Assembly (NCBI RefSeq): GCF_003096815.1
Contig: NZ_QENY01000011.1
Span: 36,220-100,219 of the forward strand
Length of the DNA: 64,000 nt
Direction of reading: 5' to 3'
DNA from: Hallella colorans
GTDB taxonomy: Bacteria > Bacteroidota > Bacteroidia > Bacteroidales > Bacteroidaceae
Made by a program: the position numbers and the translations under genes. Below are positions 21,863 through 30,083 of this stretch, piece by piece. The notes under the pieces were generated by a model. The model searched no databases. It saw only the letters and a list, made by a program, of their open reading frames with translations, and had not been told where the DNA came from. The first letter of the stretch is position 1, and each line of letters opens with the position of its first letter.

Positions 21863-22592
21863 CTAAAAAACTACCTCAATCCACCAAGAAACTCATCTTT
21901 TATAGGTAGTGTAACCGCATTGCGACCAGAAAGTTTGGCATGGTAGCTCCAAACGTTCTTGCTATAAACGTCAATGAGCCGCATACCAATGCAGCCACCT
22001 TATACGTCAATATACGACACTCTCGCACACATGTCGCATATCGCTATAGGGCAGCCACTTACAGTTTCACTTGGCGGTTCTAATGGGTGCGCTGACCAAC
22101 TTACAAATTGGGACGGAACACAAAAAGTGGGATTGGGGAATTCTGTGAAAAGAAAAGAGCCAAGAGGCTTCTCACTATAAGTTAAAATAATGAGTATAAG
22201 AACTTGCTTTGTTTGAAATTAGACAAAGCAAGTTCTTATGATTGTTAATCAAGGAGGCATAAACGCATTAATCTCCTCCGAACAACACAAGATTGTGTTT
22301 AAGTACTTGAAAATCAATACATGATTGGTATAAAGACAAGTTTATGAACGAATGACGGTGAACGCATTTTAATAGTGGGCAACTCAAAAATGCAAGATAT
22401 TACGGATGTTGTTCGTATTCTCCGCAACTTTTCACAGCCATATTTTTCTTCCCTATTTTTGAATTTCAAATTTAGGGAAATAAAAGAGTGAATAAATTGC
22501 GTATCTGATACTATCAAGTCGTGAGAGTGTTAAAAATGATGTCTGATTTGATGAAAAACCGAATTTTGTATCGTTATTTGGAAACAAAGCAT
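21863..22592. other. Gene-free stretch at the left edge of the AT-rich segment
   Basis: About 730 bases without a credible gene. Base composition shifts towards AT near 22150. The notable element is the 17-bp perfect inverted repeat at 22196-22239. No tRNA or clear attachment-site duplication is seen, so how the neighbouring accessory genes entered is not shown. Confidence 0.5.
22196..22239. repeat. 17-bp perfect inverted repeat (hairpin)
   Basis: ATAAGAACTTGCTTTGT (22196-22212) is repeated in inverted orientation at 22223-22239 around a 10-base loop. Neither flank has a terminator-like T-run, and no gene ends nearby. It could be a stable RNA hairpin, a protein-binding site or a remnant of a mobile element end. 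Confidence 0.6.
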
Positions 22593-22600
22593 TATCTTTG
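22593..22600 (+). promoter_or_regulatory. -7 promoter element of the toxin-antitoxin pair
   Basis: TATCTTTG matches TAnnTTTG exactly, 19 bases before the toxin ATG at 22620. A TTTG at 22565-22568 is somewhat far for a -33 element. Confidence 0.5.
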
Positions 22601-22619
22601 TACCATAATTCAAAACAAA

Positions 22620-22964
22620 ATGGGCATCAACAAGCTAAAAGTGGTGTTGACAGAAGAAGCACAAGCCTTTTTGGATGCGCAGCCATTCAAAGCTCAGCAG
22701 AAGATATACTACAACATCTTCAAGGTTGAGGAAGGAGTGATGAAAGTTGACATCTTCAAGAAACTGGAGAATGCCGAGATATGGGAGTTTCGCACTCTCT
22801 ACAACGGTATCTGTTACAGGCTTTTCTCCTTTTGGGACACTGAGCAAGAAACTTTGGTTATTGCCACGCATGGCATAGTCAAGAAAACACAAAAGACACC
22901 ATTAAAGGAGATTGCCAAAGCAGAAGAGATAAGAAAAGAGTACTTTAACAATAAAAAGAAATAG
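22620..22964 (+). CDS. RelE/HigB-family toxin (Gp49-like)
   Basis: The 114-residue protein fits the phage-derived Gp49-like/HigB group of RelE-type toxins, mRNA interferases that usually act at the ribosome. Visible features are LTEEAQAFLDAQPFKAQQKI, FKKLENAEIWEFRTLYNGICYRLF (the conserved Glu-x-Arg core strand region) and IATHGIVKKTQKTPLKEIAKA. The ATG at 22620 is preferred because upstream in-frame codons overlap the promoter. An XRE-type antitoxin gene begins four bases after its stop, giving the toxin-first order of higBA systems. Confidence 0.88.
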   Translation: MGINKLKVVLTEEAQAFLDAQPFKAQQKIYYNIFKVEEGVMKVDIFKKLENAEIWEFRTLYNGICYRLFSFWDTEQETLVIATHGIVKKTQKTPLKEIAKAEEIRKEYFNNKKK

Positions 22965-22968
22965 CATT

Positions 22969-23301
22969 ATGGCACAGATGAAATTGATACCAGCAGACAA
23001 TATGAAAGACAAACTTTGGGGCAAAATAGGAACTCCAGAGCGTGACGCAATGGAAGCCAAGCTCAAAGAAGATGTGAACGCCTATATTGTAGGCAAAGCC
23101 ATACGCAAGGCTCGATTGGCACAAAACCTCACACAAGAGCAACTTGGTGAGCGTATCGGCGTGCAGCGTGCTCAAATTTCAAAGTTGGAGAAAGGGACAA
23201 GTGTTATCACATTGCCAACAATGAGCCGTGTATTTCAAGCATTGGGCATTGCAACAGCTACCCTTGATTTGGGTATTGCAGGGAAAATTGCGCTGTGGTA
23301 A
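22969..23301 (+). CDS. XRE-family antitoxin (HigA type)
   Basis: The 110-residue protein has a variable N-terminal half with several acidic residues, likely toxin-binding, and a C-terminal helix-turn-helix of the Cro/CI type: IRKARLAQNLTQEQLGERIG then VQRAQISKLEKG. It probably neutralises the adjacent toxin and represses the shared promoter at 22593-22600. The four-base spacing to the toxin gene indicates co-translation. Confidence 0.9.
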   Translation: MAQMKLIPADNMKDKLWGKIGTPERDAMEAKLKEDVNAYIVGKAIRKARLAQNLTQEQLGERIGVQRAQISKLEKGTSVITLPTMSRVFQALGIATATLDLGIAGKIALW

Positions 23302-23312
23302 TATTCTTGAAT

Positions 23313-23936
23313 ATGAACGATAATAAGACTTTGAATATGCCAGAATGGCAAAAGTTGCAAGCTGGTGAGATTTATAATGATTTCGATCAGGATTTGTTTA
23401 ATTGAAGGATTGAGGCGAAACAACTGTTTCGTGCTTATAACCGCACAGAAGATAATTGGGTAGAAAAGCGTAAAGAAATTATGCAGAAACTCTTCAAATC
23501 TGTCGGTAAAAATGTATGGATAGAACCAGATTTTCGTTGTGAGTTCGGCAAGAATATCACGATTGGCAGTGATGTATATATCAATTTGGGCTGTGTTATA
23601 CTCGACTGTGGTCAAGTCACGATTGGCAACAACACTCTTATTGGTCCGAATGTCGGTATCTACGATGCCAACCATGCACTCGATGCCGAGGAACGCATTG
23701 CTGGTGGACTAAAACCTGGCAATGTACATATCGGCAACCGTGTTTGGATTGGCGGAAATACCATCTTGCTACCAAATATTACTATCGGTGACGACACGGT
23801 AATTGGAGCTGGTAGCATCGTGACCCACGACATCCCTTCTGGAGTGGTGGCTGTGGGAAATCCTTGCCATGTGTTGCGTAAGATTACAGAAAAGGACAAA
23901 GTTGGTTACAAAAGAGAATCAAGGGGTAGAAAATAA
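23313..23936 (+). pseudogene. Maltose/galactoside O-acetyltransferase-like gene interrupted by an in-frame TGA
   Basis: Translation from ATG 23313 gives MPEWQKLQAGEIYNDFDQDL and then meets a TGA at 23403-23405. The same frame then continues without break (RIEAKQLFRAYNRTEDNW) into a complete left-handed beta-helix acetyltransferase domain with hexapeptide repeats, the catalytic-region motif IYDANHALDAEER and the loop GNRVWIGGNTILLPNITIGD. The part before the stop matches the family's N-terminal domain, so the stop looks like a recent nonsense mutation; CGA to TGA would suffice. A shorter product could start at ATG 23481 (151 residues) but would lack the N-terminal domain. A sequencing error is also possible. 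Confidence 0.8.
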
Positions 23937-24155
23937 TCATGTGCAATCTTGGTAGGATTGTATAAGAGTGATGTTATTGCATTGGTACCCAATACTTGTT
24001 GCTTGGTGGTCACTTGAAATGTTCCCAAAATGAGAATGCAAGTATAACATTGCCTAAAAATAATACATATATTCATATTCTTTAACTAAACCTTGTGCAG
24101 TCATCAAGCCTTTGGCGAATCTATATCAAGATAGATAGTACGAAACAATTCGCTC

Positions 24156-25847
24156 ATGGCTTCAAATATAACAACATTAGTAGAAAAAGCAAAACAAGGT
24201 GACGCTGACGCTTTCAGCGCATTATATCAAATGTATTATCCTAAGATGAAAGGGATATGCATCAATATTCTTGGAGAGGACAAGGCTGTCGTTGACGACC
24301 TTGTCCAAGATGCTTTTATACTTGCGTTTGTTTCGTTGAAAGACTTGAAGAATACTCATAGGTTTAGTCAATGGCTTACAAGTATCACTACTAACCTTGT
24401 ATTGAAATATCAGGAGAAAGGGAAGAGATACGATTTCATTTCCTTGTCTGATATAGAGGATGAATTTAGTTCCGTATTGGAAGATGGCAACACTTCCAAG
24501 CAATCAATTCCGTATGAGGAAATCATGTCAGCAATAGACAGTTTGCCAAAAGGGTATAAGAAAATATTCAAGAAGTCTGTATTGGAAGGCTTGTCCCATC
24601 AAGAAATCAGCAAATTACTTGATATCGCTCCACATAGTTCTTCCTCGCAATTGGCAAGGGCAAAAGCATTGTTACGAAAAATATTGTCTTCAAGAGCAAT
24701 GCTTCTCATCGCATTGGCGTTGATAGTTATCCCGATATATAGATATTTTACAGCAAAGAAGAAACTCGTTTCAGAAAATGATGTGAAAATTGTTCGAACT
24801 CGAAAGCCTAATAAAGACATTACGCCTATACAAAAGCGGCCTAACGTTTCTGTTAGCAGTGCGCAAAAAGCTGTTTTGGGCTATAGTCATCAAAGCGTTC
24901 AACAGGGAAAGAACATTGTAATAACTGTTGGTGATTCGATTAAGACAGGTCAAAATGTAATACTCGAAATATCCGATTCTTTGCAGGAGAACCAACATGT
25001 TTTGGCTGATAACAAGCGAGATAGTATCATCACAAAAGATTCTGTCTATACACCTATTCCTAACGAGGAAAGATGGATTGCGGATGATACAAGGCCGCAC
25101 AAGAAAAGTAAATGGCAATTGCTCGCTGCAGGTTCTCTGGGTACTACCCTTGCGCAAAATGTTTGTAAGATTATAACAAGTAGCGCTGATGATATTACGA
25201 GTGATCAACCTTCGGAAAAGAGTTTTACTACATGGGAAGAGTATGCTAAATATCTACATCGCTTAACTCCAACTGACCCAACGGCGGAAAATGTTGCAAT
25301 GATGGATATTGCCGATAACAACAATGGCAAAATAGAAGAGGCAGAACATCATGACAAACCAATAATATTAGGATTGGCTGTGAACATGAGCATAGGAAAG
25401 CATTGGAGTTTAGAAACAGGACTCCAATACTCTTACTTGAAGTCATATTTTACTTTGGGTACTGGCAATTACCGTGTTGACAAGGAACAAAAGTTGCATT
25501 ACATTGGTTTCCCTGTCAAACTCTCGTACCAGTTCATGAAGTACAAGAGACTGTCTGCCTACGGTTCTGCAGGAGCAAGCATTCAGATACCATTGTCTGG
25601 AAAGACATATGCAGACTATGTAGTAGGAGGAAAGTCTGGCTATACAACGGATTGGAAGACAATACCTTCTATACAGTGGACTGTAAACACTAACATCGGA
25701 ATACAATATCAATTTGCACCAAAGTTGACATTGTTTGTTGAGCCAACGCTGAATTGGTACATTCCGAATGGAAGCGAAGTCAAGAATGCTTGGACAGAAC
25801 GCCCATTTACATTGACTTTGCCTTTCGGTATTAGGTTCTCTTGGTAA
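24156..25847 (+). CDS. ECF sigma factor fused to a membrane segment, periplasmic linker and outer-membrane beta-barrel
   Basis: One uninterrupted 563-codon frame. Residues 1-80 are sigma region 2 (DADAFSALYQMYYPKMKGIC; DDLVQDAFILAFVSL; RFSQWLTSITTN). Residues 120-175 are region 4 (DSLPKGYKKIFKKSVLEGLS followed by the HTH HQEISKLLDIAPHSSSSQLA). Directly after comes one hydrophobic segment (181-198, AMLLIALALIVIPIYRYF) flanked by basic residues, giving a cytoplasmic N-terminus. Residues 200-400 are polar and low in complexity, as expected for a periplasmic linker. Residues 402-563 form alternating amphipathic strands (GLAVNMSIGKHWSLETGLQY; LSAYGSAGASIQIPL) ending FGIRFSW, a BAM-type terminal strand. 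This joins a sigma factor to the architecture of dual-membrane-spanning anti-sigma proteins of Bacteroides. No separate anti-sigma domain is seen. Function is inferred. Confidence 0.85.
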   Translation: MASNITTLVEKAKQGDADAFSALYQMYYPKMKGICINILGEDKAVVDDLVQDAFILAFVSLKDLKNTHRFSQWLTSITTNLVLKYQEKGKRYDFISLSDIEDEFSSVLEDGNTSKQSIPYEEIMSAIDSLPKGYKKIFKKSVLEGLSHQEISKLLDIAPHSSSSQLARAKALLRKILSSRAMLLIALALIVIPIYRYFTAKKKLVSENDVKIVRTRKPNKDITPIQKRPNVSVSSAQKAVLGYSHQSVQQGKNIVITVGDSIKTGQNVILEISDSLQENQHVLADNKRDSIITKDSVYTPIPNEERWIADDTRPHKKSKWQLLAAGSLGTTLAQNVCKIITSSADDITSDQPSEKSFTTWEEYAKYLHRLTPTDPTAENVAMMDIADNNNGKIEEAEHHDKPIILGLAVNMSIGKHWSLETGLQYSYLKSYFTLGTGNYRVDKEQKLHYIGFPVKLSYQFMKYKRLSAYGSAGASIQIPLSGKTYADYVVGGKSGYTTDWKTIPSIQWTVNTNIGIQYQFAPKLTLFVEPTLNWYIPNGSEVKNAWTERPFTLTLPFGIRFSW

Positions 25848-25874
25848 AAAAGTCTCATTTTGCGTGCAGTCTTT

Positions 25875-26717
25875 ATGAATGATCTGTATCTATATATACA
25901 GAAAAGTCAAAAAATAAGATACATGCAAAAAAGACATACAGACAGGAAGGTTTATTTCCGTGAGTTGGAGATAACATCTAAGGAGTTTTACATCGGCTAC
26001 TTGTCAGATTTTACAGAACTGACACCAAAGAGTAGAATCTTGGAGGTAGGCTGTGGTGAAGGAGGAAACTTAGTTCCCTTTGCACAGTTGGGCTGCAGAG
26101 TGACAGGTATAGATATTGCCGAATGCAGAATTAAAGATGCCAAAGCATACTTTTCTGAAATCAGCAATCATGCTACATTTGTATGTTGTGATTTCATGCA
26201 ATATCCTGTTCCATGTAATGAAGAAGATAAATATGACGTAATACTATTACATGATGTGATAGAACACATTCCGATAAAAGAGCCATTTCTTGCACACCTA
26301 AGAAAGTTTATGAAACCAAAAGGCGTTCTGTTTGTCGGATTCCCCGCATGGCAAATGCCTTTTGGAGGACATCAACAGATTTGCAGAAGCAAACTTTGCT
26401 CACATCTGCCATTCATTCACTTGCTGCCAAACCCTTTATACAAGTTGTTGCTAAAAACATGCAATGAAGAGAAAGGAACAATAAATGAACTTATGAGCAT
26501 AAAAGATTGTCGAACAAGTATAGAGCTGTTTGAAAGGCTCATACACCAATGTGGCTTCTCGGTAGCTGACCAAAAACTTTGGTTCATCAATCCTCATTAC
26601 AAGCAGAAGTTCCACCTTACCCCACGACTCTTGCCACATTGGGTCTGGAAGATGAAATATATCAGAAATTTCTTCACCACTTCATGTTGGTATATATTGA
26701 ACATAAGCCATAAATAG
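25875..26717 (+). CDS. Class I SAM-dependent methyltransferase
   Basis: The roughly 280-residue protein has a Rossmann-fold methyltransferase core: motif I SRILEVGCGEGGNL, motif II region GCRVTGIDIAECRI, and motif IV YDVILLHDVIEHIP, followed by PKGVLFVGFPAWQMPFGGHQ. The C-terminal third is Cys/His/Trp-rich and hydrophobic (FTTSCWYIL). Related Bacteroidetes proteins often sit in surface-glycan clusters, but none is present here, so the substrate is unknown. The start is ambiguous: TTG 25860, ATG 25875 or ATG 25923. It begins 27 bases after the sigma-barrel gene and may be co-transcribed with it. Confidence 0.8.
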   Translation: MNDLYLYIQKSQKIRYMQKRHTDRKVYFRELEITSKEFYIGYLSDFTELTPKSRILEVGCGEGGNLVPFAQLGCRVTGIDIAECRIKDAKAYFSEISNHATFVCCDFMQYPVPCNEEDKYDVILLHDVIEHIPIKEPFLAHLRKFMKPKGVLFVGFPAWQMPFGGHQQICRSKLCSHLPFIHLLPNPLYKLLLKTCNEEKGTINELMSIKDCRTSIELFERLIHQCGFSVADQKLWFINPHYKQKFHLTPRLLPHWVWKMKYIRNFFTTSCWYILNISHK

Positions 26718-27623
26718 AACTTACGTTCTTTAGGCAACCATAAAATCTATGAAACAATAAATATACTTAACCATTTCGGAAAAGCAGACTCCAAAAATCA
26801 GTATTGGAATATGCTTTTCTACTTATATAAAAATGTAGGAAAACAGTATGATAGGCTACATTTCTATTGGTTCTTATAGAATAAAAGGGGATGATTGGCA
26901 ATCACATCCTTTAAGGGAAGTCGTTTCACCCCTACCTCTCTAAAATATCATTTGATAACTTTTGTTTGTCACATTTTGAGTTCGGTTGAAACATTCCTAT
27001 TCAAACACTATTTGGTAGTTTTTAATGTAATCGAAAGTTAAATACGTTAAATTATCACCCTTTCGTATCTAAACAGAATCCATATTGCCACTTTTCTATC
27101 GTTTAGAGCTTATAGTATTGATAATCAACTGATAATAAATACTTTGTGTGTTTTTAGCCCCAACCCTATTTTGAGGGGCTGGCATTAGTATCTATTCATG
27201 TTGTCATTAGGCCTTAATCGCAGGCCGAATAATACCTAATCGCAAGCTGAATAATACCTAATCGCAAGCTGAATAATGCCTAATCGCGACGCCAATAATG
27301 CCTAATCGCAAGATGGTGTCAAAACATGTGTGCCCCAACCGAAAAAGAAGCCGCTTTTATAGGCTTTTTTCTTTGTAAGACATTTGTTTGGCGATGGCCT
27401 TTTTTTAATGATTTTTTTGGCGCAACGGCATTGAGCCGGAAAAAGGGATTGGTCTATACGAACTGTCTGCTACACAAACGCGTAGCACTGTTTAAACACC
27501 GGGCCACAACACAAATTGGCGTGGCTACGCGGCCCAGAATGTCGAGAGGTGGCAAGATAGCGACACAACAACATTACCAGCAATGGCGCATGGCACACCC
27601 TCAAGAAGGCAAAAACATTAAAA
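26718..27623. other. Gene-free AT-rich stretch with a 22-bp tandem repeat
   Basis: About 900 bases without a supported gene. It contains a small hairpin (AGCCCC at 27156-27161 with GGGGCT at 27175-27180) and the tandem array at 27212-27312. A 113-codon open frame at 27326-27667 has low-complexity, basic composition and runs across the terminator of the convergent peroxidase gene, so it is not called. Confidence 0.55.
27212..27312. repeat. 22-bp tandem repeat, about 4.5 units
   Basis: Units begin at 27212 (23 bp, diverged), 27235, 27257, 27279 and 27301 (partial). Each starts CCTAATCGC (the first has an extra T), followed by a more variable half ending in AATAAT(A/G). There are no unique spacers, so it is not a CRISPR array. 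The unit length and the CCTAATC core recur in the array at 60880-61011. Confidence 0.85.
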
Positions 27624-28658: not shown

Positions 28659-30083
28659 ATGGGCGGCATTTTCGGAACAATTTCCAAAAAAAGTTGTGTC
28701 AACGATTTATTCTACGGTACAGATTACAACTCTCATTTAGGCACCAAACGTGCCGGTATGGTAACCTTTGACAAAGAGCGCGGTTTCAACCGGTCCATCC
28801 ACAGTTTGGAAAGAAGCTATTTCAGGTCGAAATTTGAGGACGAGCTTAACAATTTTTGCGGTAACCTTGGCATTGGTGTCATCAGCGATACCGATCCACA
28901 ACCTATCATCGTAAACTCGCACCTTGGCCGATACGCAGTGGTAACGGTGGCCAAAATAAACAATTTGGACACCATCGCGGACGAGCTGCTCAAGCAACGC
29001 ATGCACCTAAGTGAGCTTTCGGCCAATACGCTCAACCAGACCGAGTTGGTGGCATTGCTCATCAACATGGGAAACTCGTTCGTGGAAGGCATTAACAATG
29101 TGTTCAACCACATAGAGGGATCGTGCTCCATGTTGGTGCTCACAGAGCACAGTATCATCGCGGCACGCGACTTTCTTGGGCGCACGCCGCTCATCATCGG
29201 GCACAAAGAGGGTGCCTATGCCGTTTCGAGCGAGTCGGCGAGCTTCCCCAACTTGGACTACGAGATGATGCGCGACATTGGGCCCGGCGAAATCGTCGAG
29301 GTGCAAGCCGATGGCATAAAAGTGTTGCAACAACCGAGGAAACGTTCACAGGTGTGCTCTTTCTTATGGATTTATTATGGATTTCCAACCAGCACATATG
29401 AGGGTGTCAACGTCGAGGAGATGCGCGAGCGAAATGGGCGCATGCTCGGCAAGGCTGATGACACAGAGGCCGACTTCGTTTGTGGCATACCCGACTCGGG
29501 CGTTGGCATGGCCGTGGGGTACGCCCAAGGGCATGGCATACCCTACCGCCGCGCCGTATTGAAATACACGCCCACGTGGCCTCGTAGTTTCACACCCAGC
29601 GATCAAGCTCGACGCAACTTGGTGGCGAAGATGAAGCTCATACCCAACAAGGCGTTTCTGCTCAACCACCGCGTGGTGTTCTGCGATGACTCCATCGTAC
29701 GCGGCACACAGCTTCGCGACAATGTGCGCATGTTCTACGAGGCGGGCGCCAAAGAGGTGCACGTCAGAATATCATGCCCACCACTGGTTTACGGCTGCCC
29801 TTTCATCGGCTTCACATCGTCTAAAAGCGACATGGAGCTTATCACGAGGCGCATCATACAGGACTTTGAGGGCGACGACAAGAAAAACCTTGACAAGTAT
29901 GCCACGACGGGAACGCCTGAATATAAACGCATGGTAAACGAGATAGCCAACAGGCTGGGGCTTTCCTCATTACAGTTCTCAAGCGTGGAATCGCTCGTTG
30001 AGAGCATCGGGATGCCTAAATGCAAGCTCTGTACCCACTGCTTTGACGGCAGCAGCTACTGCCATGAGCACGACAAGGATTGA
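28659..30083 (+). CDS. Amidophosphoribosyltransferase homologue lacking the N-terminal nucleophile cysteine
   Basis: The 474-residue protein has the two-domain layout of PurF: an N-terminal Ntn glutaminase domain (residues 1 to about 230, with RAARDFLGRTPLIIG-like sequence at IIAARDFLGRTPLIIG) and a C-terminal phosphoribosyltransferase domain with PRPP loop VVFCDDSIVRGTQL (about 339-352) and CGIPDSGVGMAVGYAQ. PurF proteins begin M-C-G-I, Cys2 being the glutaminase nucleophile; here the start is MGGIFGTI, so the nucleophile is Gly. The C-terminus carries CKLCTHCFDGSSYCHEH, a possible metal site. It may use free ammonia, serve a different reaction or be regulatory. I believe such MGG-starting paralogues occur in other Bacteroidetes. 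Confidence 0.88.
   Translation: MGGIFGTISKKSCVNDLFYGTDYNSHLGTKRAGMVTFDKERGFNRSIHSLERSYFRSKFEDELNNFCGNLGIGVISDTDPQPIIVNSHLGRYAVVTVAKINNLDTIADELLKQRMHLSELSANTLNQTELVALLINMGNSFVEGINNVFNHIEGSCSMLVLTEHSIIAARDFLGRTPLIIGHKEGAYAVSSESASFPNLDYEMMRDIGPGEIVEVQADGIKVLQQPRKRSQVCSFLWIYYGFPTSTYEGVNVEEMRERNGRMLGKADDTEADFVCGIPDSGVGMAVGYAQGHGIPYRRAVLKYTPTWPRSFTPSDQARRNLVAKMKLIPNKAFLLNHRVVFCDDSIVRGTQLRDNVRMFYEAGAKEVHVRISCPPLVYGCPFIGFTSSKSDMELITRRIIQDFEGDDKKNLDKYATTGTPEYKRMVNEIANRLGLSSLQFSSVESLVESIGMPKCKLCTHCFDGSSYCHEHDKD

Follow-up and report, generated by a model that had tools for sequence, protein, structure and literature searches.

A stretch of 64,000 nucleotides of the Hallella colorans genome (NCBI RefSeq assembly GCF_003096815.1, contig NZ_QENY01000011.1, positions 36,220 to 100,219 of the forward strand; hereafter the window, numbered from its first letter) carries a gene in which an extracytoplasmic function (ECF) sigma factor, a membrane helix, a linker and a predicted outer-membrane barrel are joined in one polypeptide. 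This fusion gene is followed by a gene for a predicted methyltransferase, and a promoter-like element lies ahead of each of the two. The parts of the fusion gene are as follows.

24156..25847, + strand: fusion gene for ECF sigma factor, membrane helix, linker and predicted outer-membrane barrel (563 aa; open reading frame (ORF), Pfam and AlphaFold2)
24156..24431, + strand: sigma region 2 (about residues 1-92; Pfam, conservation)
24513..24683, + strand: sigma region 4 (about residues 120-176, motif PHSSSSQLARAK; Pfam, conservation)
24696..24749, + strand: hydrophobic stretch, predicted inner-membrane helix (residues 181-198; sequence, predicted helix)
24750..25103, + strand: linker, predicted periplasmic (residues 199-316, of which 206-316 are predicted disordered by pLDDT, the predicted local distance difference test)
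25104..25844, + strand: OmpA/OprF/NspA-like barrel (residues 317-563; Pfam, model; strand 1 at low confidence)
25140..25331, + strand: insert between barrel strands 1 and 2 (about residues 329-392; two predicted helices)

The gene is a single frame from ATG to TAA (563 codons plus stop). Pfam matches above cut-off were obtained for Sigma70_r2 at residues 23-91 (9e-9), Sigma70_r4_2 at residues 121-173 (5.8e-12) and OMP_b-brl_2 at residues 403-526 (4.6e-7); OMP_b-brl scored 28.1 bits, slightly below its cut-off of 28.7. The sigma70-ECF match reached 78.4 bits (cut-off 42.9), and the presence of regions 2 and 4, with no family for region 1.1 or 3 among the Pfam matches of the protein, places the sigma part in the ECF group (sigma-70 group IV).

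The AlphaFold2 model was built with 59 sequences, and pLDDT values are given as means of ten. They were 83-96 for residues 1-90 and 86-93 for residues 121-170 of the sigma part, below 50 for residues 206-316 and 86-97 for barrel residues 391-560. A continuous helix (residues 159-205; pLDDT 72-80 at 171-200) is predicted to join the end of region 4 to the membrane segment, and strand 1 of the barrel was placed at residues 320-328 by the model and by structural matches (pLDDT about 49-63). ORF, Pfam and AlphaFold2 agree on the order of sigma regions, helix, linker and barrel in one frame, as described in an initial annotation made from the letters alone, whose hydrophobic stretch at residues 181-198 and predicted barrel were likewise recovered. 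Its sizes for the last two parts have to be revised: the model likely leaves about 110-120 residues for the linker, which had been put at about 200, and about 245 for the barrel.

The barrel shares its fold with the small barrels of OmpA, OprF and NspA, to which it is 12-14% identical and from which it differs by about 64 additional residues inserted between its first two strands; the common fold indicates no function. If strand 1 enters from the periplasm, this insert would be extracellular, and it is a candidate sensor. The polypeptide as a whole is predicted to be tethered to both membranes, as initially proposed; the promoter-like motif and the recurring downstream enzymes described below had been missed.

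Relatives and two-gene counterparts

The fusion resembles the published Das/Dma two-gene systems (Das1-Dma1, Das2-Dma2), which have a membrane helix, a disordered tether and a barrel, a neighbouring sigma clade and a similar -35-like box. In these systems the anti-sigma factor (Dma) is a protein separate from the sigma factor (Das).

The same fusion, which the initial annotation had proposed to look for in other genomes, is widespread. Of 7994 candidates scored in a protein search, 1173 were homologues with E values of 1e-3 or lower. Sigma and barrel Pfam domains were both present in all 120 homologues listed, one of which is named as a sigma-70 factor of Hallella colorans; a dozen listed proteins with 98-99% identity sit on other contigs. 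A scan of named-species genomes gave at least 600 stretches with at least 572 relatives, the best 80 being retained for locus comparison. Among these, 76 carry one frame of at least 450 aa; as the loci were ranked by similarity to a fusion, this figure does not weigh fusions fairly against pairs. The other four are a locus that stops at a contig end (L139), two that consist of two genes (L148, L153) and one without a full frame (L082). The labels of the 80 loci include Prevotella, Segatella, Leyella, Alloprevotella, Bacteroides (faecis, salyersiae, nordii), Muribaculaceae and Porphyromonadaceae. Of seven viral stretches that fit a sequence pattern, none encodes a relative. The Hallella colorans genome (2.94 Mb) has a second fusion on contig C15 (34% identity) and a two-gene sigma/Dma-like pair on contig C6; no further sigma match at 1e-3 was found on the window's own contig.

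The counts below refer to 104 non-redundant fusions, obtained from 112 by removal of eight near-duplicates (97% over the last 450 residues). L082, L139, L148 and L153 (no full fusion frame) and L008 (broken frame) had been dropped beforehand; L044, which ends at a contig edge, never entered, and L019 was retained with its start missing. One wrong pair (L053) was left out from the anti-sigma analysis onward.

In four pairs of genes, the ratio of nonsynonymous to synonymous substitution rates (dN/dS) was 0.07-0.24 for sigma region 2, 0.07-0.29 for barrel residues 393-563 and 0.39-0.52 for the linker, a comparison of codons that indicates purifying selection at both ends of the protein. The barrel insert gave 1.30 in one pair (L001-L077) and 0.45 and 0.09 elsewhere, from changes too few to interpret.

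That a sequencing or annotation error has joined two genes finds some footing in the Das/Dma pairs that share one frame with a stop between them, but it is scarcely credible: the single frame recurs in the best named relatives and in the nearly identical proteins on other contigs, and a lost stop would not account for the missing anti-sigma segment. An artefact or a chance frame is ruled out by the single-frame relatives together with purifying selection, and the fusion gene is genuine with near certainty. A supposed longer class of fusions (about 610-650 aa) was rejected, since a stop codon divides each of the 18 fetched examples, and L036 and L038 as well, into two genes of the same frame. 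Many Das and Dma genes (L262-L279, L036-L038) are in frame with each other in this manner, with a stop and 0-51 nt separating them, a layout that might promote fusion or read-through.

Dma-like proteins have 47-55 residues ahead of the membrane helix in 26 pairs and 43-57 in an enlarged set of 45 pairs. Region 4 has a recognisable end in 100 of the 104 fusions, and the distance from that end to the membrane helix has a median of 5 residues (range -2 to 54). A hidden Markov model (HMM) of the anti-sigma segment, built from the N-termini of the 26 Dma proteins, matched none of the 104 fusions at the threshold of 1e-3 (18 when E values up to 10 were admitted, the lowest being 3.9), and a model from half of the set recovered 13 of 13 held-out Dma proteins. 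Pfam gave no anti-sigma family in the fusion up to E 1, and the Dma HMM matched at 1e-3 none of 1498 ORFs located up to about 3.6 kb from the 104 fusions, in agreement with the initial observation that no anti-sigma gene adjoins the fusion gene. Judged by this arrangement, the sigma factor occupies the place of the Dma anti-sigma segment, as had been proposed. Since that segment goes undetected in the fusions, they are more than the product of a lost stop codon. An unrooted sigma tree limited to the fusions and the sigma factors of Dma pairs separates all 104 fusions from the 26 Das/Dma pairs by a branch with 100/100 support; the bootstrap was not fully settled and several long branches were flagged.

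The C-terminal extension might instead hide an anti-sigma segment that binds the sigma part and is removed by cleavage. Sigma factors released from anti-sigma-like extensions have been reviewed (PMC8999054): IutY (ECF243) works in this way and is activated by Prc and RseP cleavage, and ECF48, ECF52 and ECF53 are expected to. The fused protein has, moreover, been filed under the anti-sigma family in the paper on Dma2 (PMC13088901). IutY and SCO4117 (ECF52) resemble the fusion in having a membrane segment of their own; their extensions are described as anti-sigma-like, with no outer-membrane barrel named in the relevant parts of the review (PMC8999054). No such segment was found in the fusion, either with the Dma HMM, which recognises held-out Dma proteins, or with Pfam, and the few residues before the membrane helix leave little cytoplasmic room for one. 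A concealed anti-sigma segment is thus improbable.

The question raised initially, whether such fusions had already been described, can be answered in the affirmative: the architecture is an already published type, at least in Dma3 of Bacteroides thetaiotaomicron, reported as a Dma-type protein with its own N-terminal sigma domain, whose gene is not beside a cognate ECF21 sigma gene (PMC13088901). The window fusion, compared with Dma3 by description, has the same N-terminal sigma domain on a Dma-type protein and likewise no neighbouring cognate sigma gene. According to the same source, the two genes of the dma3 locus (bt_2778-2779) show joint upregulation in dma1 and dma2 mutants; these mutations free Das factors, for which the authors suggest possible crosstalk to the dma3 locus, and dma3 is dispensable for the hypervesiculation of these mutants (PMC13088901). 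BT_2778 also appears as a sigma-70 factor in a table of iron-dependent genes (PMC10434189). The best 80 loci contain no record of Bacteroides thetaiotaomicron; B. faecis has two fusions, the second of which (L280:1764-3416) possibly is the nearest fetched relative of Dma3. This locus has both TGCAGTC elements (see below) and, after the fusion, a methyltransferase-like gene whose beginning, the only part compared, resembles that of the window's methyltransferase. A literature search that covered few subscription papers and no preprints found no published description of paired promoters or downstream cargo, and the new part appears to be a compact circuit around a known architecture.

Paired promoter-like elements and downstream genes

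The remaining parts of the putative circuit are the following.

24096..24125, + strand: promoter-like element of the fusion gene (TGCAGTC at 24096-24102, 15 nt, AATCTATA at 24118-24125), starting 60 nt before the fusion ATG
25865..25894, + strand: second copy of the promoter-like element (TGCAGTC at 25865-25871, 15 nt, TATCTATA at 25887-25894), starting 58 nt before the methyltransferase ATG
25923..26717, + strand: class I S-adenosylmethionine (SAM)-dependent methyltransferase, predicted target gene (264 aa; Pfam Methyltransf_25, 1.3e-15)

TGCAGT was found within 250 nt upstream of 90 and downstream of 74 of the 104 fusions, compared with 203 of 2850 control windows from the same loci, and in 88 loci it lies 35-115 nt upstream. 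The typical upstream element is TGCAGTC[TA]TT, often 52-53 nt before the start, with a second box 14-17 nt further on. Using a list of second boxes compiled after the sites had been inspected, such a box was recognised at 136 of 162 sites, in 134 of them at a spacing of 14-17 nt. Its type varies by clade: TATCTATA (window), GGACTATA and CTCCT/CTCTT (C15 type). The class matches between both sites of a locus in 60 of 69 loci (eight discordant, one unclassified). Mean similarity within own pairs was 10.38 of 16, against 8.68 for shuffled partners, a value reached in none of 500 shuffles.

The Hallella colorans genome has 20 TGCAGTCWTY sites and 11 of the reversed pattern. When ORFs of 80 aa or more are considered, only four of the former lie within 65 nt of an ORF start (at 52-60 nt), namely those before both fusions and before the gene after each; for the methyltransferase, the start was taken as the ATG at 25923, a longer ORF beginning before the motif. 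The looser pattern GCAGTN{15,18}ATCTAT gave ten matches in this genome (control, four), with TGCAGTC only at the two window sites, so that a wider regulon in this genome was rejected; one match (L190), 49 nt before a 129-aa ORF, was left uncounted. In five other genomes the -35-like box alone was too frequent to resolve a regulon. The paired elements are read as autoregulation plus one local target. The motif is quite probably the fusion's own promoter, which the fusion's own sigma part would read.

Another sigma factor, such as Das, might read the motif, with the fusion only sensing the envelope or acting as a tether. A TGCAGTA box is present in 31 of 45 Das loci, the two fusions of one genome have the same -35-like box, and the dma3 locus is induced in the mutants mentioned above (PMC13088901). 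The seventh base, however, separates the groups, for fusion sites have C in 81 of 88 cases upstream and in 71 of 74 downstream, and Das sites have A in 30 of 31; the downstream copy so common among fusion loci occurs in only 1 of 45 Das loci; and both sigma region 2 and sigma region 4 of the fusion are under purifying selection. Reading by a foreign sigma factor is accordingly given little weight. In region 4.2, residue 159 is P in 93 of 104 fusions and E in 24 of 26 Das proteins. Residues 159-160 (24630-24635) are PH in most fusions; most Das proteins have E at the first of the two positions and K, H, S or R at the second. Set against the seventh promoter base (C or A), these residues are a lead for -35 specificity; their comparison was discarded as a test of specificity, as it reflects a single evolutionary split.

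Downstream cargo was searched within 3.6 kb by similarity to nine representatives. Downstream sequence reaches 1.4 kb in 97 of the 104 loci and 3.5 kb in 59, so that all cargo counts are minima. At least one candidate modification enzyme lies downstream on the same strand in at least 76 of 104 loci: radical SAM/SPASM proteins in 51, Gfo/Idh/MocA oxidoreductases in 44 and the methyltransferase family of the window in 19, with fucosyltransferase-like proteins (Pfam FUT8_N_cat 21.8 bits, below cut-off) in three, acyltransferase-3 and GT2 in two each and PMT_2 in one. Two lipoprotein-like families follow 32 and 6 fusions. Each cargo family occurs upstream, on any strand, in at most two loci. The radical SAM/SPASM and Gfo/Idh/MocA pair recurs after fusions (L084:7737-9850 and relatives). 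The larger lipoprotein-like family (L117:7778-8335 and relatives; about 186 aa, without Pfam or NCBIfam match) stands directly ahead of the radical SAM gene in 22 of its 32 loci. Acyltransferase-3, GT2 and PMT_2 are typical of surface-glycan decoration. It may tentatively be suggested that the cargo enzymes modify a surface glycan.

A possible surface-to-promoter switch

Taken together, the locus is interpreted as a one-protein switch from surface to promoter that acts on the fusion gene and the neighbouring methyltransferase gene (probability about 0.6). A surface change would be sensed at the outer-membrane barrel, whose signal would free the sigma part; this would then transcribe both genes from the two copies of a likely private promoter. 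Until then, sigma would be kept inactive by the closeness of region 4 to the membrane helix, about five residues away. The cargo enzymes would alter a surface molecule, most plausibly a glycan. Release may occur by cleavage in or near the membrane helix, as published for IutY, and the chances of this step are put at even.

The sigma part might also recruit RNA polymerase at the membrane without being released, the barrel or linker merely modulating its activity. The continuous helix predicted from region 4 into the membrane segment suits such an arrangement, and sequence alone cannot show a cleavage site. With the -35-reading helix about five residues from the membrane, on the other hand, DNA, core enzyme and bilayer would be pressed together, and an active tethered sigma factor is therefore considered unlikely.

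Several observations speak against the proposed switch. TGCAGT is absent within 250 nt upstream in 14 and downstream in 30 of the 104 loci, and 17 loci lack all nine cargo families. The agreement of second boxes partly reflects common descent within a locus, and the class calls are crude. Das loci bear a similar -35-like box, which is also the same at both Hallella colorans fusions, and the induction of dma3 in dma1 and dma2 mutants fits promoter reading by a Das factor at least as well. NCBIfam matches of the cargo are all below cut-offs, so that no substrate can be assigned. Strand 1 of the barrel is modelled at low confidence, and delivery to the outer membrane of a C-terminal barrel behind an internal membrane helix poses a difficulty. 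The genome has one Peptidase_M50 protein, of the site-2 protease (S2P) family, yet such a protein is present in 14 of 14 control genomes, and its presence therefore says little.

A wider proposal, held somewhat below even odds, is that trans-envelope sigma factors with interchangeable modifying enzymes form widespread mobile surface-remodelling cassettes in Bacteroidales, the regulon of each being the cassette only. If so, sensor, transducer and transcription factor would be one chain from the outer membrane to the promoter, the second promoter box would change in step with sigma, and the enzymes would comprise methyltransferase, radical SAM with sugar-type oxidoreductase, acyltransferase and glycosyltransferases. 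Such cargo would suggest that gut, rumen and oral bacteria modify a small molecule or surface glycan on induction. The predicted two-gene regulon with a defined promoter makes this type of fusion testable. The clade-variable second box beside a nearly fixed -35-like box would offer natural sigma-promoter sets for specificity studies, which could be of use for surface-responsive switches in gut Bacteroidales.

A probably transferred block and its neighbourhood

Both genes and both promoter-like elements lie in a block that is highly similar in other genera.

23936..27145, no strand assigned: block shared with other genera at 92-94% identity (about 3.2 kb; the two genes and the two promoter-like elements)

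Positions 23936-27142 are 92.9% identical over 3.2 kb to Leyella stercorea (L077); a second Leyella genome (L076) matches positions 24057-27030 at 93.6%, and G074, a genome of another genus, has the block at 92.0% identity. The 474-aa protein encoded at 28659-30083 is only 66-68% identical to its counterparts in both Leyella genomes. The right-hand breakpoint agrees within a few bases in four contexts (the window, L077, L048 and L076); on the left, L077 and L048 have the same flank and thus represent one independent join. The block looks like a two-gene unit transferred between genera. A recent gain in this species alone found no support, as 9.6 kb of the region recur at 96% in the genome of Prevotella sp. 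S7-1-8. No transposase was seen as part of the unit; a 327-aa ORF inside the block in L076 appears transposase-like by eye.

A copy of the fusion gene in G074 (contig C10; L008/L048), 83-93% identical, is interrupted between linker and barrel. A Gp49-like and HTH_3 gene pair at 22521-23301 of the window resembles a toxin-antitoxin system, and a similar pair adjoins the broken copy in L048. A hexapeptide-repeat transferase-like gene (23481-23936) lies directly upstream of the block, and L048 has an acyltransferase-3 gene at the corresponding position. Immediately to the right of the block, at 27193-27324, is a 22-nt tandem repeat of about five copies.
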